A stretch of DNA of 20,405 nucleotides. It comes from a virus. Of the stretch, positions 6,584-20,405 are shown one piece after another. Under the pieces are notes generated by a model. The model saw nothing but the letters and a program-made list of their open reading frames with translations. It was not told the DNA's origin and ran no database searches. The position numbers were made by a program, and so were the translations under genes. Every line of letters starts with the position of its first letter. Within the stretch, counting starts at the first letter, position 1. The stretch lies in IMG/VR virus record IMGVR_UViG_3300042691_022026, positions 1 through 20,405 of that record. One strand, 5' to 3'.

Positions 6584-6763
6584 ATAAATGGATGGTACCC
6601 CAAAGCATGGCTGAGTTCAAGACTTATCTCGAACATCCAGGACTTGACAATACAGGGTACAAATATCAAGTCACTATTTTATTAACATTTATTGCGACAC
6701 TTTTTAAAAGGAGTGTCGCATTTTTTATTTATATCTATTTTCTTATTGTTTATATTTATTGAT
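6584..6763 (+). other. Intergenic boundary between the nrd and baseplate cassettes
   Basis: This 180-base gap is the longest in the window. Its first part (6588-6660) is about 47% G+C by hand count, against about one third around it. It is bounded by a 6-bp inverted repeat, GTACCC at 6595-6600 and GGGTAC at 6655-6660. A frame from ATG 6592 to TGA 6762 could encode 56 residues, but its hydrophobic second half is the translated terminator and T-rich leader, so I do not call it a gene. The second part holds the terminator and an A/T-only leader for the gp25-like gene. The GC-richer block could be a decayed gene fragment or a structured RNA; the sequence does not decide. Confidence 0.5.
6693..6727 (+). 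terminator. Rho-independent terminator after nrdA
   Basis: A perfect 9-bp stem, TGCGACACT at 6693-6701 and AGTGTCGCA at 6712-6720, encloses a 10-base loop and is followed at once by six T (6721-6726). It is the strongest hairpin-plus-T-run noticed between genes. It lies about 110 bases after the nrdA stop, so it should end the replication/nucleotide transcript and separate it from the baseplate genes. Confidence 0.88.
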
Positions 6764-7219
6764 ATGGCTACAAAATATGGTATAGATTTCCCATTTAGAG
6801 ACAGTCTCGTTGGAGATTATGTCAGGATGACCCAATCTAGAGATGAAGAAATTCGCGCAAACCTTGTACATTTATTACTGACAAGGAAGGGCAGTAGATA
6901 TTTTTTACCAGATTTTGGTACTAGATTATATGAATATATTTTTGATTTAAATGATGCAATCACATATTCAAGCATCGAAGATGAAATAAGAGAAACAGTA
7001 AAAAGGTACATCCCAAATCTAGAAATTAATTCAATAAGAATAACTAACCCAGAATTAGAACCAGAAGACGGTTTATCATCAGTTAGTGAGGACGAAGATG
7101 CTAGACTATTTAGAGTTGGGGATACATCAACTAAACCATACACAGCAAAAATAAGAATCGATTATACAACAAATGATTCGACTTTTGCAACATCAGATTT
7201 TATAATTATCAACATATAA
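6764..7219 (+). CDS. Baseplate wedge protein, gp25 / gpW-like
   Basis: This 151-aa protein of the GPW/gp25 (T4 lysozyme-like baseplate) family forms part of the wedge core in contractile tails and is thought to initiate sheath assembly. The family signature is visible: IDFPF near the N-terminus, then EEIRANLVHLLLTRKGSR, then PDFGTRLYEYIFD, followed by the helix IEDEIRETVKRYIP and a C-terminal strand KIRIDYT. Length fits the family (T4 gp25 is 132 aa). I chose ATG 6764 because the frame extended further upstream would run through the terminator hairpin from a TTG. Despite the historical name, it is not expected to be an active lysozyme. The gpJ-like gene begins one base after its stop, consistent with joint assembly. 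Confidence 0.88.
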   Translation: MATKYGIDFPFRDSLVGDYVRMTQSRDEEIRANLVHLLLTRKGSRYFLPDFGTRLYEYIFDLNDAITYSSIEDEIRETVKRYIPNLEINSIRITNPELEPEDGLSSVSEDEDARLFRVGDTSTKPYTAKIRIDYTTNDSTFATSDFIIINI

Positions 7220-7220
7220 T

Positions 7221-9053
7221 ATGAGCAAAAAAATATCATATACAAACCGCGATTTTGCTGGGTTAAGACAAGACCTGGTTAAACTAACCAGAGATTTTTA
7301 TCCAGATATAATTCAGAACACGAATGATGCATCCATTTATTCGGTTTTACTAGATCTTAATGCTGCGGTTGCAGATAACTTGCACTTCCATATAGATAGA
7401 GTATGGCAAGAAACCATGCTTGATTTTGCACAACAAAGACAATCTCTATTTCATATTGCAAAAACTTATGGTATTAGAATACCTGGATCAAGACCATCTG
7501 TAGCCTTATGTGATTTTAGCATAATTGTTCCCGTAAAGGCGGATAAGGATGATGAAAGATATGCCGGAATTCTAAGAGGCGGTACACAAGTATCCGGAGG
7601 CGGTCAAATTTTTGAAACAATAAGTGATATTGATTTTTCAAATCCATTTAATGAAAGAGGCGAATCAAATAGATTAAAGATCCCGAATCGAGCCGCTAAT
7701 GGTGATATTATTTCTTATACATTAACAAAGAGAGAACCTGTTGTAAACGGCGTTACAAAAATTTTTAGAAGAGTTATAACACAGAGAGATCAAAGACCTT
7801 TCTTTAAATTATTTTTACCAGAACAAAATGTTTTAGGTATTACCGGGATGATTCATAAAGAAGGGACAAACTTTGTAGCCAACCCAACAAATGCTGAATT
7901 CGCTTCCTCAACAAATAAATGGTATGAGGTAAAATCACTTATTCAGGATAAAGTTTTTGTACCTAACACAACAGCGGTTTCGGATAGAAATAATTTTAAG
8001 GCTGGTGAGTACATTACTGTTAACAACAAATTTATTAGTGAGTATACCCCAGAAGGTTATTATTATATAACTTTTGGTTCAGGAAACGTTGATCCATTAG
8101 ATAATTTAGAAAACTATATAACAAATACACTTAAAGTTAATTTAGCAACATATTTGAACAATATGTCTTTAGGTGCCATACCTAAACAAGACACCACGTT
8201 ATTCATAAAATATAGAATTGGTGGTGGTAAAGAAAGTAACTTGGGTGTTGGAGTTTTAAACAATGTTGAAAACTCGGAATTTATCATCAATGGACCAAAT
8301 AGTACTATCAACGGACAGGTAACACAATCATTAACAGTAACAAATGTTACCCCTGCTGTTGGTGGTGCTGACCAACCAACCATCGAGGAGTTAAGGGGTA
8401 TGGTAGCATATAATTTTGCGGCACAAAATAGAGCGGTTACACTTAACGATTATAAATCAATGATTGAAACCATGCCATCAACATACGGAGCACCAGCCAA
8501 AGTCAATGTAATGGAAGAAGATAACAAGGTTAGAATTAAATTATTATCATATGATGAAAATGGTAATTTAACTAGCATCGTATCTAATACTCTAAAACAA
8601 AATATATTAAATTATTTATCAGAATATAGAATGATCAATGATTATTTAGATATTGTTAGTGGTGAGGTTATTGATTTAAGTTTAGAAATTGATTTATTAT
8701 TGGATAAAAATCAAACATCTACAGAAGTTATTAGAGATGTCATTGAAGCAACAACATCATATTTTTCAATTGACAAGAGGAAAATGGGTGATCCTCTTTT
8801 TGTTGGTGAACTTATGAAGGAAATAAACAATGTTTCTGGTGTGGTTAACGTAATTGAGGTTAAAGTCTTTAATAAGATTGGAGGAGAATATTCAACCTCT
8901 CAGGTTTCACAAACATACAAAGACCAAACAACAAAAGAAATTCAACAATCCGATCTAACTATTTTCATGAAATCTAACCAGATTTTTCAAATAAGATTCC
9001 CAAATAAAGATATTAAAGTAAGGGTAAGAACACTAGGTTCGACTACATATTAA
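7221..9053 (+). CDS. Baseplate wedge protein, gp6 / baseplate J-like
   Basis: This 610-aa protein is the expected partner of the gp25-like protein and would form the ring of the baseplate inner wedge (T4 gp6 is 660 aa). The N-terminal helical part (residues 8-80), with YTNRDFAGLRQDL and FHIDRVWQETMLDFA, fits the J family. The diagnostic J motif is at about 380-412: GGADQPTIEELRGMVAYNF, then AVTLNDYKSMI, the GG-x-D-x-x-T-x-EELR...AVT-x-x-DY pattern. The C-terminal third (about 420-560) alternates strands and helices like the family's terminal domains. The insert between about residues 100 and 370 is larger than in P2 gpJ, as in T4 gp6. The leader is TAATATG without Shine-Dalgarno. Its neighbour upstream is gp25-like, the classical W-J order. 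Confidence 0.88.
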   Translation: MSKKISYTNRDFAGLRQDLVKLTRDFYPDIIQNTNDASIYSVLLDLNAAVADNLHFHIDRVWQETMLDFAQQRQSLFHIAKTYGIRIPGSRPSVALCDFSIIVPVKADKDDERYAGILRGGTQVSGGGQIFETISDIDFSNPFNERGESNRLKIPNRAANGDIISYTLTKREPVVNGVTKIFRRVITQRDQRPFFKLFLPEQNVLGITGMIHKEGTNFVANPTNAEFASSTNKWYEVKSLIQDKVFVPNTTAVSDRNNFKAGEYITVNNKFISEYTPEGYYYITFGSGNVDPLDNLENYITNTLKVNLATYLNNMSLGAIPKQDTTLFIKYRIGGGKESNLGVGVLNNVENSEFIINGPNSTINGQVTQSLTVTNVTPAVGGADQPTIEELRGMVAYNFAAQNRAVTLNDYKSMIETMPSTYGAPAKVNVMEEDNKVRIKLLSYDENGNLTSIVSNTLKQNILNYLSEYRMINDYLDIVSGEVIDLSLEIDLLLDKNQTSTEVIRDVIEATTSYFSIDKRKMGDPLFVGELMKEINNVSGVVNVIEVKVFNKIGGEYSTSQVSQTYKDQTTKEIQQSDLTIFMKSNQIFQIRFPNKDIKVRVRTLGSTTY

Positions 9054-9113
9054 TCTATTTTTTACTTATCTTTTTAAACATAGAAAATTGATAAGTTTCT
9101 ATTTATAGATAAT
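9054..9113 (+). promoter_or_regulatory. Short intergenic hairpin before the 1266-aa gene
   Basis: This 60-base spacer contains a 7-bp inverted repeat, ACTTATC at 9064-9070 and GATAAGT at 9090-9096. It may extend inward by four A-T pairs (9071-9074 with 9084-9087) across a two-base bulge. The flanks are T-rich. The stem is weak in G+C and has only a broken T run after it, so it could be a poor terminator, an mRNA processing or stability element, or chance in A/T-rich sequence. Confidence 0.25.
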
Positions 9114-12100
9114 ATGGTTCAGAAGCACAGAATTAATACTAGATTAAATACTGATAAGAGGGTTGCGTTAGAATTAAAACAGAACTACGACCTTCTGGAG
9201 ATATTATCTTTAAAATTCACTCAACAAGACGCGTACACATCTTTATGTGCCGATTATGGTGTTGTTTGTGGTAGAATATCAGTAAATAACGGTTTAGGCG
9301 TTCCTAATGCCAGAGTATCCATATTTGTTCCATTATCAGAACAAGATGAATTAGACCCGATAATTTCCGCATTATACCCATATAAGTTAACCAGTGACGC
9401 AAATTCAGATGGTTACAAGTATAATCTATTACCTTCCAGAAAACAACACGGTGGCCATGAACCAACAGGTACATTCCCAGACCAAGCGGATATTTTAACT
9501 AGGGAAGAACATTTAGAGGTATTCGAAAAATATTACAAATATACCGTTAAAACGAACTCATCCGGAGACTTTATGATTTGGGGAGTTCCACTTGGGGAAC
9601 AACTCATACATGTTGATGTCGATTTATCAGATATTGGTTGTTTTTCATTAAGACCCGATGATTTTATTGCCCAAGGGCTTGGCATAGACTCTTTTAAAAA
9701 CACATATTCATATAAATCATCAACAGATTATGCGGCGCTACCCCAGATTAAATCTTTTGAAAGAACAATAGATGTCGCACCATTTTGGGGTAACGTAGAT
9801 TTGTGCCAAATAGGGATAACCAGAACTGATTTCGATTTATCCGACCAAGGAGTAAAAATTGAACCAAAAGCATATTTGTTGGGATCTGTTTTTAGTGACC
9901 AGGGTAATAATACTGTTAATAAAAACTGTAATCCAAGATCCGGAATGGGTACCAAGTGTAGTTTGGTTACAGAAGAATGTGTTATCGAAGTTTTAAGGTT
10001 TACAACACAGAAAGATTCCAATAATCGACCAACATTAGAGTTGTATGAAATAAATGGCGATATTGATGATAGTGGTTCATTTGTTTTAAATTTACCGATG
10101 AACATGGAATATGTTTATACAAATGAATTTGGCGAAAATGAAGTTACAAATGACCCGAATAAAGGTGTACCTACATCAGCATGTTATAGATTTAGAATAT
10201 CTTCTAAAAACGAATCCTTAGGTAGAGTTAGAACAATCGGCTCATATCTAGTTCCGAATATTAGAGAATATGCAACAAGCGGTGCTGAAATTGAAAAATC
10301 TTACGCGTGGTCCACAAATTGGAATGATTATCCAACAGGGGCATTAAATAACCAAATCATTTTTAATAATATTGATGGTAGCTATTACCCACAAGATTAT
10401 TTCTATAGATTAAATTATAATAAAGTATATAGTGTTTCATCATTTTTAAGCTCATATGACGAAGCAACACTTGGGATACAAGAAATTGCACCAAAATCAG
10501 AAGACGATTGTGAAAGTAACGTAGTAACGCCTCCAGTAAATTTCGGTAGAAAAAATAATTCTTTCTCAACATTATTAGCAACAATAGTTAATACATTAGA
10601 AAGAATACTTTTTTATGCATTCATTGCAATTGTCCAAGTATTAATAATCCCCTTTCAACTTTTATATAATTTTAGAATTAGAATTAGGGCTTTTGGTACT
10701 ACATTAATTGATTGGAGACCATTTGGATTTTTTGATTCATTAGTTATTGAACCATTACAAAGATTTGGTACCATTCGTTTAGGTATTGCAATATACCCAG
10801 AATGTGAAACTTGTGATAACTTAGATTACTCTAATGATCCCCCAGATACAGATATTGAACCAGAGGGTTATTATACTGAAGTGGGTAACGGATCTGCATA
10901 TCCAGATAGTGTTTTAGCTAGTACGTGTGGTAGTGTTCTTGCGGATAATGATACATCATTAGCAACAATTTATTTAAAAGTCCCTAGTGGAATTGCAGAT
11001 TGTTCACCACCGATCAGTTTTTCACCAACATTATCCGGAATAAGTATAGACGATATTGTTAATTCTCCAGGTAGATATATCTTTAAAGTTGTATCAACTG
11101 GAAATTATGGTGAGTTAGATTTATTTACAAAAGAGATCATTGATGTCAGTGGGGTTACACATACACTATATTATTTTGATGATGCTAGAGAAGTAACTTG
11201 GTCAGGTGGTACACAACAAACAAACAATTTTTCATATAAAATATTTGATTCACAATCTTTAGTTGGTGGAGGGCAACCAAGCGGAGGTCTAAATTCTGAA
11301 TTAGAGGGAGGTTGTCAACAATATGTCACCGTCTATAAAGAAAGTATTGTTAGTGGAACTTATTGTGTTACAGACCCATCAACACCATATAGTGGATTAA
11401 CATCTTCGGACATAGTTGCTGGGACCACTTGTACAAGTGGCAAAATTGCAGTTGGTCAAGTTATTAGAAATGTTGATAATAATCCATGCGGCACATGTGG
11501 GACACACAGTGGTTATTCAGAATTTAGATATGGATTATTCACAATAGTTCCTGCGGCATCAACAAGCAACTGGGGGGTTAATTTTGATGCAATAACGGAA
11601 TATTCTAGAAGAAAACTTGTTGCAAAATTATTTTGTGGTGGAGTGGCAAATTATTCATTTATTGATAATTGGTTAACAGGGGCATTATATATGTTTCCAT
11701 TCAAAGCGAAGGTTAGATGGGATGATGAAGAAACATTAGATTTAAATGTAAGAAGAACAAAATACTGTTCCGATTTGGTTTATTTTAAAGCTGGAACTGT
11801 AGAGAATCCAGATAAGAGATTTTATTATAGATCAACATATTTCAATGGCACATCATTTAACAGAAGTATCAGAGATAACCTAGGTCACCCAACAACAATT
11901 GTTGATTTGGGGCCAAGAGATGAGTTTATTAAAGAAATATGTATTGATCCAGCAATGGACCCAAATTGTTCAGTTGTTAGAAATATTGGACCAACGTCTT
12001 ATCAAAATTTTAAAGAATTATTAGGGCTTTATATTAACTATAAATTGGATTATTTGGCTGGTGACGCAAACCCAAATTCGTTTTTTCAAAATGATGGTTT

Positions 12101-12914
12101 TGATTCGACACTTGGAGTAAGTAATGTTATGAATGGTGATATTTTACAGTTAATTTCTATAAATAATGAGGCCGGAATAGAAGAGTTTGATCTTCAAAAT
12201 AGAAGTTATGCGGCATATACCCCACAAGTTTTAGATATTGAAAGTTTCCCAGACTTATTTGATGGCGGCCCTATGCCAGTAAATCTTGTTTTAGATGATG
12301 GTAATGGTTACAGAGTAAGAACATGTCTAAATGAACCGGGTAGATTGACAGAATCATCACAAGAGATACCGTTTTATTTGTGGAATAAAGGTGGAACAGG
12401 ATTTGGATCTGGAGTTAATCAATCATGGAATTATTCCAGTATTGAGACTCAACCACTACAAGGAATGACATACGCATACAATTATACTGGTGATGCCTCG
12501 CATAAGTATATATTATTACCAATGACCACACAATTTAGTGGAGCGACATTTGAATATACCGGAGTAACACTTAACGATGTTAATGCTGATGTTGAAACAA
12601 CCGGAACAACACACACAAATTATAATAACCAAGAAGAAGGATTTAGTGTCTTAGAAATTGCAACGGGAACTGAGGATAATCCTTTAACAGGAACATTATG
12701 GGTTAGAACTGGTGACACAGGAAACTGGGCATCAATTGCGTGGACTAATGATGTTGATTTCATAATAAAACCAACAACAAACAATTATAGTGGAAATTAC
12801 CAAATACTTTCCACACCGTTTTTATTCTATTTTGGATTGAGACCAGGTAATACCGCGGTTGATAAATTTATAAAAAGGTTTGGACCATTAGGTGCATTCC
12901 CATCAACTGAATAA
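9114..12914 (+). CDS. Large virion (baseplate-associated) protein with carboxypeptidase-regulatory-like domains
   Basis: I do not recognise this 1266-aa protein as a named family. Residues 50-75 (GRISVNNGLGVPNARVSIFV) and 147-170 (TNSSGDFMIWGVPLGEQLIHV) together form the pattern of a carboxypeptidase-regulatory-like beta-sandwich, split by about 70 extra residues. A second similar unit appears at about 255-335 (LLGSVFSDQ, then DDSGSFVLNLP). Residues 497-520 are strongly hydrophobic (LFYAFIAIVQVLIIPFQLLY), long enough to span a membrane, followed by an Arg-rich RIRIRAF. There are about 23 cysteines, including CxxC at 564-567 and 792-795. The C-terminal third is Thr/Gly/Asn-rich, beta-type sequence like tail-fibre proteins. 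No signal peptide is seen. Its position between J-like and I-like baseplate genes points to a virion role. It is larger than T4 gp7 (1032 aa), and I see no convincing match to it. Confidence 0.75.
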   Translation: MVQKHRINTRLNTDKRVALELKQNYDLLEILSLKFTQQDAYTSLCADYGVVCGRISVNNGLGVPNARVSIFVPLSEQDELDPIISALYPYKLTSDANSDGYKYNLLPSRKQHGGHEPTGTFPDQADILTREEHLEVFEKYYKYTVKTNSSGDFMIWGVPLGEQLIHVDVDLSDIGCFSLRPDDFIAQGLGIDSFKNTYSYKSSTDYAALPQIKSFERTIDVAPFWGNVDLCQIGITRTDFDLSDQGVKIEPKAYLLGSVFSDQGNNTVNKNCNPRSGMGTKCSLVTEECVIEVLRFTTQKDSNNRPTLELYEINGDIDDSGSFVLNLPMNMEYVYTNEFGENEVTNDPNKGVPTSACYRFRISSKNESLGRVRTIGSYLVPNIREYATSGAEIEKSYAWSTNWNDYPTGALNNQIIFNNIDGSYYPQDYFYRLNYNKVYSVSSFLSSYDEATLGIQEIAPKSEDDCESNVVTPPVNFGRKNNSFSTLLATIVNTLERILFYAFIAIVQVLIIPFQLLYNFRIRIRAFGTTLIDWRPFGFFDSLVIEPLQRFGTIRLGIAIYPECETCDNLDYSNDPPDTDIEPEGYYTEVGNGSAYPDSVLASTCGSVLADNDTSLATIYLKVPSGIADCSPPISFSPTLSGISIDDIVNSPGRYIFKVVSTGNYGELDLFTKEIIDVSGVTHTLYYFDDAREVTWSGGTQQTNNFSYKIFDSQSLVGGGQPSGGLNSELEGGCQQYVTVYKESIVSGTYCVTDPSTPYSGLTSSDIVAGTTCTSGKIAVGQVIRNVDNNPCGTCGTHSGYSEFRYGLFTIVPAASTSNWGVNFDAITEYSRRKLVAKLFCGGVANYSFIDNWLTGALYMFPFKAKVRWDDEETLDLNVRRTKYCSDLVYFKAGTVENPDKRFYYRSTYFNGTSFNRSIRDNLGHPTTIVDLGPRDEFIKEICIDPAMDPNCSVVRNIGPTSYQNFKELLGLYINYKLDYLAGDANPNSFFQNDGFDSTLGVSNVMNGDILQLISINNEAGIEEFDLQNRSYAAYTPQVLDIESFPDLFDGGPMPVNLVLDDGNGYRVRTCLNEPGRLTESSQEIPFYLWNKGGTGFGSGVNQSWNYSSIETQPLQGMTYAYNYTGDASHKYILLPMTTQFSGATFEYTGVTLNDVNADVETTGTTHTNYNNQEEGFSVLEIATGTEDNPLTGTLWVRTGDTGNWASIAWTNDVDFIIKPTTNNYSGNYQILSTPFLFYFGLRPGNTAVDKFIKRFGPLGAFPSTE

Positions 12915-14674
12915 TGAAAAAGAAAACAATTATATTACCGGAGTTAAGATATAAAGAGGCTCCATCAGAAGATCAACAGATTGGTATTGATTTAGATAGT
13001 AGTGCAGAACTTCTTAGAGAGGGTGATAGAACAATTATTTTAGATTTAGAAGAACAATTTTCTAAAGAAAGAAATGATAGTAAAAAATATAAAACCTATG
13101 GTAAAATAAGAATGGTTTTTAGAAACCTTTATAAAGGCGTTGCACCATATGGAAATTTAGAAGAATATTTAGCATTAGAGGGGGATGGTTCTGATAATAG
13201 TTTTATTGGCTATCTACCATATGATGAATTTGCATTTATTAGAAGAGATACCTATAGACAAGATATTAGTATACCAAGCGTTAGTGGAACAACATACGGA
13301 ACGTATAACCCAACGATGGCAACACCCACGTACCCAAGAAATAAACATCAAAACATATCAAATATGGGCGCACCATATCATAACTGGAATTTATATTTGA
13401 GTTATGTCTATAGTGGTGATACAAATTACCCAATTAAATATACTCTTAGCGGAGCAACAAAAACTGAAGGTGAAAATATAATTTCATTTGTTAGCGGTGA
13501 TGGTATACCTTGTAGAGTTGAGGACAGAACAACATATTATAAATTAACCACACCAGTTGAACATGGATTTAGTGATAGTGAATATGTTATTTTTTCTTCA
13601 GAATCCTCAATCAGCGGAAAAACCTACTCAGTAAGTAGTTTAGGTGACGCTAAATTTAATTCAGAAAAATATGTTATAAACCTTAATAAACAACAATTTA
13701 GCGGGGTTACCTTATCTTCTCTAGTAACAATAAAAAGATGTATTGATCAAAATAATGTTACAGGAACGACATCAAATTACTATGTACACAAACATAAAAC
13801 TTTGACAACCACAGATAAATACATAATGGATAAAGCTGGGTTTGAAACACCAATTTTTGAAGAGGAAAAAAAATTATTAGTAGAAAATAGCGTTGGTCAA
13901 AATGATTTAATTGTTGAAAGAAATAGAATGGAGTCAATTATATTTGATTTCAAATCACCATTTATTTTAAGTGGGTTAACAAATAATTTAGATTTTACCC
14001 CAACAGAGATTTACCTAAGTGTAATTTTTAGAAATGGTTCGGGGTATTTTGAATACCCACCAAAAAATGGTTATAGATTTCATTTTCACGATAGTTGGAT
14101 TGACGATCATTTCAGTGGTAGTACATCAATTGAGAGCACGATACCATATACAACAGGTATAACTAGCGGAGTCACATTTACATATGGTTCGGCGCTACCA
14201 GAGGGGACAATTTTGACAGGCGCATTTGTTGAATATAATAGAAGTGAATTAAAAGAAAGAATTATATCTGAATCATTTCATAGAATTTCAAATCCAATAA
14301 CAATATTTGATCATGATCAAGACACAAATGTGACAGCATTTAGTGGTGCAACAGCAAATAATAAAATGGGATTAATTTATCAACCACATTACAGAATAAA
14401 ATTGAGAGAACTCTCTAGTTATATAGAAACATCGAACACAAATGACATTGATGGCCTACCCGATAATGCTGAATATTTCCAGGGTGAATCGCTGTGGAAG
14501 TGGAGAGATTTATATGACCATGGGTACATTGATGAAGAAGGAAATGGTGTAGATTTTCCATTTGTAAATGGGCAACATTATGTTAAAAGTGATATAAACT
14601 TCTATTTTAGAAACGAAAGATACTTCTTAAATAAAGCTGATGGAAATAAAAATTTAAACAGCACGAATTGCTAA
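12914..14674 (+). CDS. Predicted virion structural protein with tail-fibre-like HGF motif
   Basis: The family of this 586-aa protein is not recognised. The N-terminal 110 residues are charged and partly helical, suited to docking. The middle (about 205-262) carries a pattern common in phage tail-fibre and receptor-binding proteins: PVEHGFSDSEYVIF, a Ser/Gly segment, GKTYSV, then a strand. The rest is Ser/Thr/Gly-rich beta-type sequence with repeated S-G-x-T motifs at 179-182 (SGAT), 263-266 (SGVT), 401-404 (SGST), 418-421 (SGVT) and 477-480 (SGAT). It has only three cysteines and no membrane segment. The ATG overlaps the previous stop in TAATG, so translation is probably coupled to the 1266-aa protein. 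A baseplate or short-fibre component is the likeliest role, inferred from context and composition. Confidence 0.7.
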   Translation: MKKKTIILPELRYKEAPSEDQQIGIDLDSSAELLREGDRTIILDLEEQFSKERNDSKKYKTYGKIRMVFRNLYKGVAPYGNLEEYLALEGDGSDNSFIGYLPYDEFAFIRRDTYRQDISIPSVSGTTYGTYNPTMATPTYPRNKHQNISNMGAPYHNWNLYLSYVYSGDTNYPIKYTLSGATKTEGENIISFVSGDGIPCRVEDRTTYYKLTTPVEHGFSDSEYVIFSSESSISGKTYSVSSLGDAKFNSEKYVINLNKQQFSGVTLSSLVTIKRCIDQNNVTGTTSNYYVHKHKTLTTTDKYIMDKAGFETPIFEEEKKLLVENSVGQNDLIVERNRMESIIFDFKSPFILSGLTNNLDFTPTEIYLSVIFRNGSGYFEYPPKNGYRFHFHDSWIDDHFSGSTSIESTIPYTTGITSGVTFTYGSALPEGTILTGAFVEYNRSELKERIISESFHRISNPITIFDHDQDTNVTAFSGATANNKMGLIYQPHYRIKLRELSSYIETSNTNDIDGLPDNAEYFQGESLWKWRDLYDHGYIDEEGNGVDFPFVNGQHYVKSDINFYFRNERYFLNKADGNKNLNSTNC

Positions 14675-15489
14675 TGAGAATTTTATTTAAAAATATTGAT
14701 AACAGTTTAACACTAGGAAAAACAACCACCTTTTCTAACGATTTAGGTTGGGAGGAATCTTTTAAGGAAGCCGAGAGAGATATACTTGAAAGTATAATAA
14801 ATCCGGTGGAAAATTATGAAACCATCAGATATATCAATGAACCATATACAGGAGCAACAGGTTTAGTTTCTGATGTGTGGTATTTTTTCTATTTTATTGA
14901 TGGTAGCAATACATACGCGAAGGGGTTAGACTATAGTTTGGCGGGAATAACACCCAAAGAAAACGCTCTATTATTAAAACAAACAACTAAAAGTTTCTTT
15001 AGATTAGAATTTTATACTACCCCGAGTAGGGAGACGCAGAAATTAGTTTTTGCAAAAAACTTATCAATACCACTAGGTCAAAAAGTTTTTGACCAAAATC
15101 TTCTTGACAACATCTTTGTCCCTGTGTTTAATGGGAACAATTATCGAAATACCGAAAACATGTATTTGTTTTGGTTTGGGGATGATACGGTTTTTAGCGG
15201 AACATCATTTTACATGACTGCCAGATTTTTTAATGCTGATGATGGAACCATTACGCAATTTTTAAATAAGGATTTAAATGTGGATAATTCTGGGCTTACT
15301 GATGGCCAAAGGTTAGGTTCATATGCAGCACCAATAAAGTTCTATGAAATAGCATCAAATTACAATGTCGTTCCAGAAGACGACTTATATTATTGCGTTT
15401 CTTTTAGAAGAACTGATCATACATATAAAATAACTAGATGTGGCGATTTTTGCCAATTTTCTGATGGTACCGCAACAATTGTAACATAA
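14674..15489 (+). CDS. Predicted virion protein, 271 aa, unrecognised
   Basis: This protein is not recognised. I chose ATG 14674, which overlaps the preceding stop as TAATG and gives MRILFKN; a TTG at 14668 would add two residues but is less likely because two other junctions here use the same TAATG arrangement. The sequence is aromatic-rich (VWYFFYFI, MYLFWFGDD) and predominantly beta-type, with a charged helix near residues 25-45. The motifs YTGAT and FSGTS echo those of the neighbouring proteins. Three late cysteines (in YYCVSF and CGDFC) could bind metal or form disulfides. There is no signal peptide and no clear membrane segment. Its position suggests a baseplate-peripheral protein. Confidence 0.68.
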   Translation: MRILFKNIDNSLTLGKTTTFSNDLGWEESFKEAERDILESIINPVENYETIRYINEPYTGATGLVSDVWYFFYFIDGSNTYAKGLDYSLAGITPKENALLLKQTTKSFFRLEFYTTPSRETQKLVFAKNLSIPLGQKVFDQNLLDNIFVPVFNGNNYRNTENMYLFWFGDDTVFSGTSFYMTARFFNADDGTITQFLNKDLNVDNSGLTDGQRLGSYAAPIKFYEIASNYNVVPEDDLYYCVSFRRTDHTYKITRCGDFCQFSDGTATIVT

Positions 15490-15490
15490 A

Positions 15491-16396
15491 ATGGAAAAAA
15501 ATTCATATCAAATATTATGGAGTTCCGGATCGACTTATGATTTACCAATTTTTTTAGATTCAGATGTTGATGAACTTGGTGTTATGGTCGGCTTCGATGG
15601 CGATATCGAACAGGTTGAACAGTTATGTAATTTTACATACACTGCTAGCGGTTTAGTTTTAAGAGTATATAACACAACAAACACAAATAAAATAAATAAA
15701 GTTGTTGATGCAACATTTCAAATAAATTGGGGAGACGGTTCATCAGTAACTTCAATAGGTATTTTACAAAATAGCGGTCATACATACTCAACAAGTGGTG
15801 AAAAGACCGTAACCATTACCATGGATAGCCCATGGGGGGTTAAAAGTACTAGTAAAAAAATTAATTTACCATTACAACAAAGTGACCCAACAGACCTAGG
15901 ATCATTAACATTTGATATTCCGTACACAGAAATAACTGATTTCGTTCAAAATTATCAAAATGATTATGAATATGATACAACTGGTTATACAGGTACAACC
16001 ACATTTTTTGCAATTGGTAGAAGTAGAATAATTGAAAAACAAATATATGGTGGAACCTATACAGGAACAACAAATGGAACAACCACAATAAGTGGTGAAA
16101 ATTTTGCTTATACTGGTTACACGTTAGATGGGTTAGATTATCTGGACTTATCAGATGGAACAACGTATATTAGTGGTAGTACTTCTAGCTTTGTTTCTGA
16201 AGCTGAATTCACAAAAAAATTAACCAGAAATGAGCATTATTTGGGGTTTATAAACGAACCGATGATTTATTCGGACATTTTTGTGGAAAGAGGAAAAATG
16301 GGGGTATCCGAATTTAACCTAAGACTTGGAGAAATAGACAATCTAGGCGAATTAGAAATTTATGGAAATGGTTTTTTTAATGTGAAAAAACAATAA
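15491..16396 (+). CDS. Predicted virion protein with PKD (Ig-like) domain
   Basis: This 301-aa protein contains a PKD-type Ig-like fold at about residues 50-127. The diagnostic pieces are FQINWGDGSS (76-85) and GHTYSTSGEKTVTIT (96-110), matching the family's WGDGS...HTY...G...VT pattern. PKD and related Ig-like folds on virions usually mediate weak binding to surface carbohydrate or to other proteins. Residues from about 165 to 215 are a Thr/Gly-rich low-complexity stretch (YTGTTTFF, GTTNGTTTISG, ISGSTSSF). The C-terminus (about 240-301) is different, more charged, and may be a docking domain. The gene begins one base after the preceding stop (TAAAATG). A tail decoration or adhesin role is inferred; the PKD call rests on the visible motif. 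Confidence 0.75.
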   Translation: MEKNSYQILWSSGSTYDLPIFLDSDVDELGVMVGFDGDIEQVEQLCNFTYTASGLVLRVYNTTNTNKINKVVDATFQINWGDGSSVTSIGILQNSGHTYSTSGEKTVTITMDSPWGVKSTSKKINLPLQQSDPTDLGSLTFDIPYTEITDFVQNYQNDYEYDTTGYTGTTTFFAIGRSRIIEKQIYGGTYTGTTNGTTTISGENFAYTGYTLDGLDYLDLSDGTTYISGSTSSFVSEAEFTKKLTRNEHYLGFINEPMIYSDIFVERGKMGVSEFNLRLGEIDNLGELEIYGNGFFNVKKQ

Positions 16397-16421
16397 AAAT
16401 TATATTTATTAATAAAACAAT

Positions 16422-17330
16422 ATGGCAGTAGGTAGTTACGGAACAATTAGACCAGCGGATGTGTCGCCAGATGATGTGGAGATACTCTTACATTATGTTG
16501 CTGATAGATCAGCTGCGGCTGATGTTTCATTAACAAAATTAACATCATCAGAAGTTTTGACACCAGTGTTTCACAACGCTAATACCGGAGGTGCAAATGG
16601 TGTAGAATTGCTAGGAGGTATGTATAATCTCAGATTAAGCACCGATAACTTTGATCAAATTGGAATATATACACTACACATCAGACCAAAGCAAATAAGA
16701 ACTTCAATTAGTGATTGTGGTGTCTTATCCTCATTACCATCTGTTAGAGGAATTGTTTTAGATTTAGGTGATGTTTCCGAAGAAGATAGAAATAAGTTTG
16801 TACCACAAGGATTAGTTGGTTACAGAATTGAATATATTGATTTAACATCGCAACAAAAAGTCCCAAATTTTTATAAAGTAGTTACATCATCATTTTATTG
16901 TGAGCCAGTAACAACAAATTTGACGAATAGTTCTCAAAAATCTATTAGATATCGATATACCGATACTCCAACAAACTTATTGTTTTTGACGGTAACACCA
17001 TCATCTTCACCAACAACGAGACCTACAATTGTACCATTTATTGGTCAACCAGGACAAACGATTATTTTAACAAATAGTTTTTTTAATCCAACTACGGTTG
17101 AGGTTGAGATGGTTGAACATGATATATCAACATTAGCACTTGCTCTTTATGGTAATCAAAGTAAGGCTGTTTCTTCTGGTATCTATACAATTTATGACGG
17201 AGGAAATAATATCTATAAACAGTTTAATCTATATGAAGTTAAAGACGAATTTAACGAAACTCTATACGAAATTAGAGAGGAAAGAACTGATATCGATCAA
17301 ACATTAAACTTTACTGATATTACCGAATAA
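16422..17330 (+). CDS. Predicted virion protein, 302 aa, unrecognised
   Basis: I do not recognise this 302-aa protein. The first 60 residues (GSYGTIRPADVSPDDVEILL, then HYVADRS) look like a compact N-terminal domain. The rest is beta-type, with a Pro/Thr/Ser-rich linker near residues 185-200 (TVTPSSSPTTRPT), then FIGQPGQTIILTNSFFNP. The C-terminal 40 residues are strongly acidic. There are only two cysteines. Unlike its neighbours it lacks the repeated S-G-x-T motif and is less Thr/Gly-rich, so it may be a core or connector protein rather than a fibre-like one. It is preceded by a 25-base A/T-rich gap, and its stop overlaps the next start as TAATG, which suggests coupled synthesis with the tail protein I-like protein and perhaps direct interaction. 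Confidence 0.7.
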   Translation: MAVGSYGTIRPADVSPDDVEILLHYVADRSAAADVSLTKLTSSEVLTPVFHNANTGGANGVELLGGMYNLRLSTDNFDQIGIYTLHIRPKQIRTSISDCGVLSSLPSVRGIVLDLGDVSEEDRNKFVPQGLVGYRIEYIDLTSQQKVPNFYKVVTSSFYCEPVTTNLTNSSQKSIRYRYTDTPTNLLFLTVTPSSSPTTRPTIVPFIGQPGQTIILTNSFFNPTTVEVEMVEHDISTLALALYGNQSKAVSSGIYTIYDGGNNIYKQFNLYEVKDEFNETLYEIREERTDIDQTLNFTDITE

Positions 17331-20300
17331 TGGCAAATAGAAAAGTTCCGAGTCAGGCTTCTAGTGGTTTTGATACGTTTAGTGATAGTATTGTTGGTAG
17401 ACAAATTACCGATGGTACTAGTCAATTGACTAATACTAATTTTGCATTAGATCGAGAACTACCGGAACAAGATGCTAAAACATTTCGAACCGCACCATTT
17501 TCAAATTATCTAACTCTAGATGATTTAAAGATTGAAGAAGATGTGCCGACAACCGTTGTTCAATCAGATGGTAAAAAAAGGCCTGTTAAATTTAATAGTT
17601 CAAAAACAGATGCAACCAAATCACTATTTGGGTCTCTAAGAGAAAGAATTAGAGTTTCTATTGAAAGAATTATAAAAAATTTTCCAGCGGGTTTATATGT
17701 TGATGCGAGTAATGTTAGATCTATAACAAATCTTACTGCAGAAAATATTACATACAATATTAACACAAATAGAACAACTTTCGATGTTCACTCACCAAAG
17801 TTTTTTAATCCATTTGATGTTATTATTAGAAAACCAACGCAAAGTAATTTAGTTGAATCTCAAAATAAATTAAGAGATTTTTATTCATCTTTTAGAAAAT
17901 ATTCTGTTGAAATAGGTGGTGTATTATATCCCATTACAAATTATGTGGAACCAGCAACAACAAACTATATTCAGCTAGAAGTTATTGGTAAACCATTTAC
18001 CGGGTCAACATATTCATCTAGTTACCTAATTAAACCAAACAATTCTGTTGTTGAGGAATTTTTTTTAGGGCTAGACGATCTTGAATCAACCATATTAAAT
18101 AGAGAAACATTCCCTATTTACCAAGCATCATTTAAAGTTCCAAAAACTAGCTTAGATGAAAGTAAAACAGAAATTGTTTCAGTATTAGTTAATTGGCCAT
18201 TAAGTGTTGATGGATGGAATTTAAGTATTGATGGTTTAGCGTTTGACAGTTACATTACTGATTTAAATAATTTAGCCGAAGAGGTTGATGGTTATAAATC
18301 AAACTTAGTTACAAGATTTTTAAGTGCACCACAACTATTTGAATTTGATAGTAAAGATCAAAAAATTGACAAGATATTTCAATTATATGGTCAAAGTTTT
18401 GACAAAGTAAAAACCTATATTGATAATATTGCCTATATGAGAAATGTCTCATATGATGCAATTAATAATGTTCCGGATGTATTTTTAAAAAATTTAGCAA
18501 ACACATTAGGATTAAATACAATAGATTTATTTGATCAAAAATCTTTAGAAGATCAAATATATAAATCTTCAGATGTAATTTATAACGGACAATCAATTGG
18601 TAAAAATTTAGTTGAGGCAGAATTAGAATTCTATAGAAGAATTTTAATTAATCTTGCGTTTATATACAAATCAAAAGGTACAAGAAGTAGTTTAGAATTC
18701 TTCCTTAAATTTATTGGGGCGCCAAGCCCAATGGTAACAATCAATGAATATGTTTATAGAGTTGATTCATCAATAAGCGGCGCATCCACCGAAGATGATA
18801 TCTTCAATGTGATTAATAATGTTGAAACAAATAACAGAATCACACTTGATGAAGATACATTTACATATAGGCTAAGTGGCTCCACAGGAACAACAAATGT
18901 TAGTCAAATATCTGATTATCCTGTTGACCCTGTTACGTTTTTACCAAAAACACCAACAACAAATACAGATAACTTATTTTTCCAAATGGGTTCTGGTTGG
19001 TACACAACAACATTAGATCATAGAGGCCCAGATATTTTAGATGAAGAAAATTCGGTACTGAGTGGTAGAACAAAAACGATATTAACTAAATCAAAACCAT
19101 ATACATATGGTGAACAATTTTTTGATGCGTATAGAACGCTACCTGGATTAGATTATGGCTTCACATTAAGAAGTGAGGTAGATAACATTAAGGGCCAAGT
19201 TATTGATGATTTAGATTTATCTAACCTAACTCTAAATAGAAAAAACATAAACGTATTTGTTAATCCAGCAAATGCTATAAATTATGACATTTGGACAAAA
19301 TCTAGAGAGTTAGAGGTAACATTTGGTACAAATAGTTTAGAGCCTCAAGTAGGGATAAGTTTTAGTGAGTTTCTTGGTAATGTTTTAAATGGCCAAATAA
19401 AAAATTCTAATTTAATTCGATATAAAAAGAATTATATTCAATTAGAAGATGTGTATAGAGATTATGTGTCACAATTGACATTGTCTGGGTATACACCATA
19501 TGACATTATTACCGTTTCAGAATTCGTTAATAAAATGAGCCCATATTGGGCAAATGTTCTAGATCAAATAATTCCGGCAACGACTTTATGGTTAGGTGGT
19601 AACTTAGTTGAAAACAATGTATTTGGTAGACCTAAATATGCATATAGAAAACCATGTAAGCCGCTAGAGATTGTTGAGAATTTATATCCCGATTTTGAAA
19701 CATTTATTGAAGAGGATCTCGAAACAATTATTGGGGAACCAGATAATTTAAGAGGTTTAACATATTTTAGTGGTGCAACATTTACACTTTTTGTTGAAAT
19801 AGATGGTGTTGAATATAGCGGATCAACACAAGTTGTAATTACCGGCAGTACAATATTTCCTGATGGATTTACAGCATCTAATAGTTGTAGTGTTTTATCA
19901 AACTCAGCAACAGCAATTCCATTAATTTGTGATTATAAAAATTGGATCGAATTAGATTTAAATACAATAAAAACTAATTGGGATTCAGCAATCGATGATT
20001 TAGTTAGTGAAATCAATGAAACCTATACACAGTATAGTGCAACAAACACTCCCGACTATGTTCCATCTGGTGCAATAATACCTAGAGATATGCAATTACT
20101 GTCCTATGAAATATTCGAGGATAGTAACCAAATTAAAAAAATTAGATTTATATTAAATAATAATGGTGATTGTAGAGGTAAAAAATCATTAGATTTTTAT
20201 TTCTCAGCAACCTATGGAGTAACACAAGACCCAAGATGCTATCTTGATGCGGAAATTTTCGCACCTTGCGATGTATATACCGGTCAAACTGATTGTAAGT

Positions 20301-20405
20301 TAGTTAGTGATGTTATTATTAATTTAACAGGGGTAACGGTTCAAGAAAATTATGATGGTGCTCTTGATTGGGGTATCTATATGCATAGAAATTGTGAGGT
20401 GGGTG
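17330..20405 (+). CDS. Large baseplate wedge protein with tail protein I / T4 gp7-like region (3' truncated)
   Basis: The frame is open from ATG 17330 to the window end, giving at least 1025 residues. Residues about 320-470 match the architecture of phage tail protein I (P2 gpI family), whose T4 counterpart is the wedge protein gp7. There is a helical block with FLSAPQLFEFDSKDQKIDKI and VKTYIDNIAYM, then VPDVFLKNLANTLGL, then FYRRILINLAFIYKSKG running into TRSSLEFFLKFIGAP (451-465). The run from YKSKGTRSSLE to the terminal Gly mirrors the family's YRRRGTRRGLE...G signature. N-terminal residues 1-310 and everything after about 480 are extra, beta-rich, with SGST/SGAT motifs near 813 and 829 and a cluster of cysteines in the last 80 residues. 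It should occupy the gp7/gpI place beside the gp6/J-like protein. The assignment rests on motif reading, not on alignment. Confidence 0.78.
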   Translation, partial: MANRKVPSQASSGFDTFSDSIVGRQITDGTSQLTNTNFALDRELPEQDAKTFRTAPFSNYLTLDDLKIEEDVPTTVVQSDGKKRPVKFNSSKTDATKSLFGSLRERIRVSIERIIKNFPAGLYVDASNVRSITNLTAENITYNINTNRTTFDVHSPKFFNPFDVIIRKPTQSNLVESQNKLRDFYSSFRKYSVEIGGVLYPITNYVEPATTNYIQLEVIGKPFTGSTYSSSYLIKPNNSVVEEFFLGLDDLESTILNRETFPIYQASFKVPKTSLDESKTEIVSVLVNWPLSVDGWNLSIDGLAFDSYITDLNNLAEEVDGYKSNLVTRFLSAPQLFEFDSKDQKIDKIFQLYGQSFDKVKTYIDNIAYMRNVSYDAINNVPDVFLKNLANTLGLNTIDLFDQKSLEDQIYKSSDVIYNGQSIGKNLVEAELEFYRRILINLAFIYKSKGTRSSLEFFLKFIGAPSPMVTINEYVYRVDSSISGASTEDDIFNVINNVETNNRITLDEDTFTYRLSGSTGTTNVSQISDYPVDPVTFLPKTPTTNTDNLFFQMGSGWYTTTLDHRGPDILDEENSVLSGRTKTILTKSKPYTYGEQFFDAYRTLPGLDYGFTLRSEVDNIKGQVIDDLDLSNLTLNRKNINVFVNPANAINYDIWTKSRELEVTFGTNSLEPQVGISFSEFLGNVLNGQIKNSNLIRYKKNYIQLEDVYRDYVSQLTLSGYTPYDIITVSEFVNKMSPYWANVLDQIIPATTLWLGGNLVENNVFGRPKYAYRKPCKPLEIVENLYPDFETFIEEDLETIIGEPDNLRGLTYFSGATFTLFVEIDGVEYSGSTQVVITGSTIFPDGFTASNSCSVLSNSATAIPLICDYKNWIELDLNTIKTNWDSAIDDLVSEINETYTQYSATNTPDYVPSGAIIPRDMQLLSYEIFEDSNQIKKIRFILNNNGDCRGKKSLDFYFSATYGVTQDPRCYLDAEIFAPCDVYTGQTDCKLVSDVIINLTGVTVQENYDGALDWGIYMHRNCEVG

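Follow-up and report, generated by a model that had tools for sequence, protein, structure and literature searches.

Contractile-tail baseplates and the locus studied here

The wedge scaffold of contractile tails consists of gp25, two copies of gp6 and one copy of gp7 in both T4 and Vibrio phage XM1 (PMC10457771). XM1 numbers its counterparts of gp25, gp6 and gp7 as 15, 16 and 17, and its gp7 ortholog is 242 aa long (PMC10457771). Here we describe a 20,405-base fragment of an uncultured virus (the window), in which five genes, designated A to E, stand between a gp6-like gene, designated J, and a gene at the gp7 position, designated I-like. Far-T4 phages were considered as a name for the group to which it belongs; the text of that paper does not mention the baseplate (PMC4360716).

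Layout and coding status of the operon

The left end of the window carries replication and nucleotide genes, with a helicase and a ribonucleotide reductase assigned in relatives. A hairpin follows, after which the genes run on the + strand in the order gp25-like, J, A, B, C, D, E and the start of the I-like gene. The features are as follows.

6694..6719, + strand: terminator-like hairpin preceding the baseplate operon, GCGACACT..AGTGTCGC with a T-run after it (TTTTTT)
6764..7219, + strand: gp25-like baseplate wedge gene, 151 aa from ATG (PF04965, PHROG 261)
7221..9053, + strand: J, T4 gp6-like wedge gene, 610 aa (PF04865, PHROG 219, hhalign)
9054..9113, + strand: J–A spacer with inverted repeat and TATTTAT (conservation, motif enrichment)
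9114..12914, + strand: gene A, 1266 aa, large and Cys-rich, opening the A-B-C cassette
9252..9860, + strand: predicted transthyretin / CarboxypepD_reg / CnaB-like domain of A, about residues 47–249 (range carried over from the model of the L004 homologue)
10563..10691, + strand: conserved hydrophobic segment of A, about residues 484–526, one 43-residue helix in the model (hydropathy, L004 model)
12914..14674, + strand: gene B, 586 aa, without a known family
14674..15489, + strand: gene C, 271 aa from ATG, without a known family
15491..16396, + strand: gene D, 301 aa, with an N-terminal module, a PKD-like domain (aa 74–123) and a C-terminal signature of about 60 aa
16422..17330, + strand: gene E, 302 aa, beta-rich, the most conserved of the five
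17330..20405, + strand: gp7/gpI-like gene, truncated at the window end; core aa 310–479 at 18257–18766

The hairpin was spotted by eye, and the terminator scan gave no score for it. The start of the gp25-like gene was placed at ATG 6764, with TTG 6692 set aside, and an in-frame TTG at 14668 would give a gene C product of 273 aa.

The A/B, B/C and E/I junctions are TAATG stop–start overlaps. Comparison of the window with L004/L100 gave dN/dS values of 0.08 (J), 0.15 (A), 0.11 (B), 0.09 (C), 0.09 (D), 0.10 (E) and 0.13 (I), which are approximate, with dS above 1. The range of 0.08–0.15 across J to I indicates that all seven are real coding genes; A to E are intact and under purifying selection. 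Thirty-four loci hold the seven genes (28 contigs, some near-identical); each has the order J-A-B-C-D-E-I with all genes on the same strand, and no locus violates it. The initial annotation had described five unrecognised ORFs of 1266, 586, 271, 301 and 302 aa between the J-like and I-like genes. Its coordinates and lengths are correct, the order is unbroken in 34/34 relatives spanning the region, and profile searches with A to E returned nothing above cut-off in PHROGs, Pfam and NCBIfam.

The J–A spacer contains an inverted repeat (ATAGAAA..TTTCTAT) adjoining TATTTAT, conserved in the 22 loci compared. TATTTAT is present in the window at 6753–6759 (before gp25), 9100–9106 (before A) and 16403–16409 (before E); the genes J, B, C and I lie close behind or overlap the preceding gene. 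Across four 60 kb stretches (from G002, G004, G006 and G009), 36 of 88 plus-strand copies were located at most 35 bases upstream of an ORF start, with 2.1 expected by coverage. The motif is possibly a late promoter element in the window's clade.

Known and probable wedge genes flanking A to E

The assignments of gp25 and J are firm. The gp25-like protein, which is 149–151 aa long in most relatives, matched GPW_gp25 (PF04965, 1.2e-12, above cut-off) and the PHROG 261 baseplate wedge family (9.2e-17). J matched Baseplate_J (PF04865, 4.6e-7, above cut-off) and the PHROG 219 baseplate wedge family (3.2e-21), and aligned with T4 gp6 at 93.6% in hhalign.

The I-like gene showed no direct match to any baseplate family in the Pfam and PHROG searches, and none to T4 gp7 in hhalign, in which the T4 side was a single sequence. 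Residues 310–479 were compared with the large genes standing one or two genes after J in the phages immuto, Mel-JY01 and LR756508. Three separate comparisons gave 72%, 86% and 72%, respectively (hhalign), and every other gene of those regions gave at most 2.2%. The shared pattern is LYGQ.FD ... NL...LG ... RR...NL..I.KSKGT...L.F.L.F.GAP. Tail_P2_I weakly matches the same large gene in LR756508 (12.7 bits, E 0.024). By these profile comparisons the I-like gene is likely the gp7/gpI counterpart, a grade chosen because T4 gp7 itself went unmatched.

Complete copies of the I-like protein range from 1,176 to 2,329 aa among the first relatives and reach about 3,000 aa in the marine clade described below. 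These proteins (L118 12201–17045 and others) have long Thr/Pro-rich C-terminal stretches of variable length, and phrog_15511 was found in 9/13. The I region is broken into at least two ORFs in L139, L141, L143 and L144. Sequence-profile searches of the PDB yielded no credible phage match for E, B, I or A; strong PDB matches to I were rejected as due to its Thr/Pro-rich tail. A sheath and tube directly downstream of I, guessed from gene sizes of about 700 and 200 aa, were also rejected: the gene of 200 aa is RuvC-like, with primase and SbcCD genes after it, and the sheath lies about 25 kb upstream of J.

Separation of A-B-C from D-E among relatives

Distant relatives were collected by a scan of cellular genome contigs and two further viral scans. 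The J tree contains three clades, namely that of the window, a marine clade and a third clade (L148–L153), and leaves their branching order unresolved. The marine clade keeps J-A-B-C-D-E-I, with a single small hydrophobic gene separating J from A (L129 961–1374; L135 1072–1590; L138 1112–1528; L141 2387–2650; L144 2580–2891). Its product, seen in this clade only, has 87–172 aa and an N-terminal Cys motif, MGCxxCK in most. In G009 of the window's relatives (L121 5901–7356), two additional ORFs of 248 and 235 aa separate A from B.

Third-clade genomes likewise have D, in shortened or split form, and E ahead of I, and other genes fill the interval between J and D. These encode a small protein whose start, judged by eye, resembles the D N-terminus, a DUF6734 protein in some members (L148 8666–9538; L150 2926–3783, 2.8e-14; L151 2081–2938), and in others a longer protein with a weak LRR match. 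The DUF6734 gene carries a DxD-like motif (HVDSDVF) and perhaps encodes a glycosyltransferase.

An absence of A-B-C from the third clade was considered and rejected, as whole-genome searches found the cassette elsewhere in the genome. In G017 the A and B profiles detected both genes (A with E about 1e-99), and in G019 they detected A; profiles at the ORF level placed A-B-C contiguously in both. A-B-C occupies 180.3–185.0 kb in G017, with J-D-E-I at about 61–71 kb, and 36.7–40.8 kb in G019, with J-D-E-I at about 146–155 kb, a separation of about 105–110 kb. In both genomes the start of A and a divergently oriented tail sheath gene (PHROG 1.6e-64) are about 300 bp apart. A and B were not found in G018, which has 148 kb and is possibly a fragment.

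A-B-C is thus one separable cassette, and D-E are constant partners of the I-like gene. The initial annotation had treated the five genes as one inserted block; five genes do lie between J and I, but they are not one unit, since D-E stay with I in three clades and A-B-C can separate. The position of A-B-C at a tail address in two contexts gives a good probability that these are tail genes.

Domain and fold analysis of A to E

All-pairs profile–profile comparison of A to E gave at most 0.8%, and the possibility that they are duplicates of one another was rejected. A tblastn search of 50,697 phage records with A and E of the window and of the third clade returned no homologue.

A ranges from 1,199 to 1,732 aa among relatives, with conserved ends and a variable, Cys-rich middle. 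The complete homologue from L004 (1,199 aa) was modelled with AF2 at a mean pLDDT of 65, and only the better parts of the model were interpreted. Residues 47–249 matched domains of carboxypeptidase D and M, teneurin and pilin (VIA-align, Z 8–10 over 77–94 residues, 2–3.5 Å rmsd), and Pfam CarboxypepD_reg weakly matched A in 12/25 members (best 0.009). On the model, A carries a transthyretin/CnaB-like domain. At full length A had no convincing match among solved structures.

D gave a PKD_4 match below the cut-off (0.002, 18.6 bits against a cut-off of 27; best relative 7e-5) and contains WGDG and HTY motifs. Its C-terminal signature of about 60 aa is conserved in three clades. D proteins have 300–484 aa, with variable N-termini of between none and about 180 extra residues (e.g. 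L022 18805–20064); one member of the alignment has a CBM_5_12-like match (0.006).

E retains 43–87% identity across three clades. An AF2 model from a 37-sequence alignment (pLDDT 76) was beta-rich, and a fold search with it gave no PDB match at E ≤0.001; the best Z of 6.5 is in the range of common beta arrangements, and the absence of a PDB match is no evidence of a new fold. The only strong structural relative was the Myoviridae protein ctNQV2 (41% identity). The adhesin-like folds proposed initially are supported for A (transthyretin/CnaB-like, by the model) and weakly for D (PKD-like, by Pfam); E is beta-rich and matched no known fold.

Host

One relative's contig comes from a Prochlorococcus single-cell assembly (L129, QCKH01000004.1, 83.8 kb, equal to L131 in IMG/VR) and one from a Bacteroidota MAG. 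The place of L129 in that assembly may reflect either infection or co-sorting. L129 contains no psbA-type gene, and 12 records searched for psbA, as a sign of a cyanobacterial host, yielded none. A Bacteroidota link is suggested by the MAG and by a short match of ribonucleotide reductase to Cellulophaga phages, and the Prochlorococcus assembly complicates it. From these sequences a Bacteroidota host is plausible.

A proposed role for A to E and its alternatives

We consider it probable, though well short of certain, that A to E are lineage-specific baseplate components of T4-related contractile tails, with A-B-C forming a peripheral subassembly and D-E wedge attachments. We assume that gp25, J (gp6-like) and I (gp7-like) build the wedge scaffold familiar from other contractile tails. 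D and E would be fixed wedge attachments on the gp7-like protein, the D C-terminus docking on the scaffold and its PKD-like and variable N-terminal parts facing outward. A, B and C would assemble jointly as the peripheral subassembly, with outer parts contacting the host surface; the conserved N-terminus of A may dock while its fast-changing middle is exposed, with B and C as partners. A to E would then link the core baseplate to host-contact parts, as peripheral wedge proteins. The length variation of A and the variable D N-termini, including the CBM_5_12-like one, fit exposed surfaces. We infer the virion location, docking sites and host contact, presence in the virion being read from the gene neighbourhood. 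Several observations count against this explanation: a baseplate adhesin would not usually carry a hydrophobic helix such as that of A, the I-like gene did not match T4 gp7 and is linked to Tail_P2_I indirectly, and neither E nor A had a convincing counterpart at full length among solved structures. The elaborated baseplate with host-contact parts proposed in the initial annotation remains the best reading, refined to an A-B-C cassette plus a D-E pair, with host contact inferred.

It is possible, although we think it unlikely, that A to E are instead highly diverged T4 peripheral wedge proteins (for example, B as gp10, E as gp8, and C as gp9 or gp11) that lie between gp6 and gp7 rather than after gp7 and serve, as in T4, as pins, fibre connectors and wedge cement. 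Sizes are alike (B 586 vs gp10 602, E 302 vs gp8 334, C 271 vs gp9 288 aa), the genes belong to the wedge operon, and a gp23 capsid marks the relatives as T4-related. Gp23 scored above cut-off in 4/8 uncultured relatives searched, which are fragments, and in 3/3 named or public outgroup phages. Pfam identified a tail sheath in relatives of the window and marine clades, and PHROG did so in the third clade; the window itself has neither a sheath nor a gp23 gene. However, profiles of A to E against T4 gp53, gp5–gp15 and Wac gave at most 0.9% in hhalign, compared with the 93.6% between J and gp6, a weak test for distant folds with single sequences on the T4 side, and no contractile-tail baseplate protein was among the PDB matches listed for the E model. 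Ordinary T4 gp7–gp12 in their usual order, which would have argued against the initial annotation, were not seen; five genes lie between the gp6-like and gp7-position genes.

To a second alternative we assign a small probability: A may be membrane-active, its helix staying shielded in the tail until contact and then entering the host envelope, either by itself or together with the marine small hydrophobic protein. A hydrophobic segment (KD19 ≥1.6) is at the same place in 37/39 window- and marine-clade homologues of A, and the L004 model shows it as a 43-residue helix (481–523); no segment of this kind was seen in B, C or D. The hydrophobic gene between J and A of the marine relatives could supply the partner. 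The hydropathy maximum of a single A protein is, however, often no higher than shuffling its own residues can produce, so it is the segment's shared position, and not single values, that counts as evidence. Third-clade A has no such segment, which shows that it is dispensable for the cassette, and a buried oligomer core would explain it equally well.

Slimmer still is the chance that A-B-C is a transferable cassette encoding a membrane-engaging, disulfide-rich, new-fold subassembly that docks either next to the sheath gene or within the wedge operon, with the A helix entering the host envelope at contraction. Very improbable is that some of A to E are assembly chaperones or non-structural proteins that are in a late operon by chance, a reading favoured by the replication genes in the neighbourhood but opposed by the strict synteny with wedge genes, the place of A-B-C near the sheath in a second context and the beta-rich, multi-domain A and E, which better fit tail proteins.

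Returning to lineage-specific baseplate components, the evidence points to a known machine, the contractile-tail baseplate, in elaborated form, and not to a machine of a new kind. Relatives of J are encoded on at least 594 viral contig stretches, and five conserved tail-operon genes were absent from the three family libraries searched; naming A to E makes the baseplates of a common group of uncultured aquatic phages readable. A-B-C shows that baseplate-associated genes can stay a block at distant genome positions. If A to E do contact the host, they would be a natural place to seek host-range determinants.

Comparison with known systems

The domain at A 47–249 shares its fold with the beta-sandwiches of transthyretin, CarboxypepD_reg and CnaB (pilin, teneurin), but differs in having a long insert between strands and in being embedded in a phage protein of 1,200–1,700 aa with no second recognised domain. 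With the T4 wedge (gp25, gp53, gp6, gp7, gp8–gp12) the locus shares tandem gp25 and gp6 homologues and a large gp7-position protein downstream, whereas its gp6-like and gp7-like genes are five genes apart and A to E have no detectable profile match to gp8–gp12. XM1 and the P2-type W-J-I genes follow the same gp25 / (gp6)2-gp7 scaffold logic; by comparison, the J–I interval here spans about 8.3 kb and the I-like protein is more than 1,000 aa long.

The nearest public phages, Flavobacterium phage immuto, Microcystis phage Mel-JY01 and the uncultured LR756508, have a related J (26–29% identity), the I-like core, and J and I that are not adjacent, and no A, B or E was found anywhere in their genomes. 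Their J–I interval holds a 369–420 aa protein (L083 19875–21035, in Mel-JY01; L082 19814–20923; L084 19890–21152), CBM96-like in Mel-JY01 (5.5e-5, slightly below cut-off), and two of the three add one gene, of 112 or 413 aa. A J–I gap filled with unrelated genes in these three phages means that the gap is not unique to the window's group.
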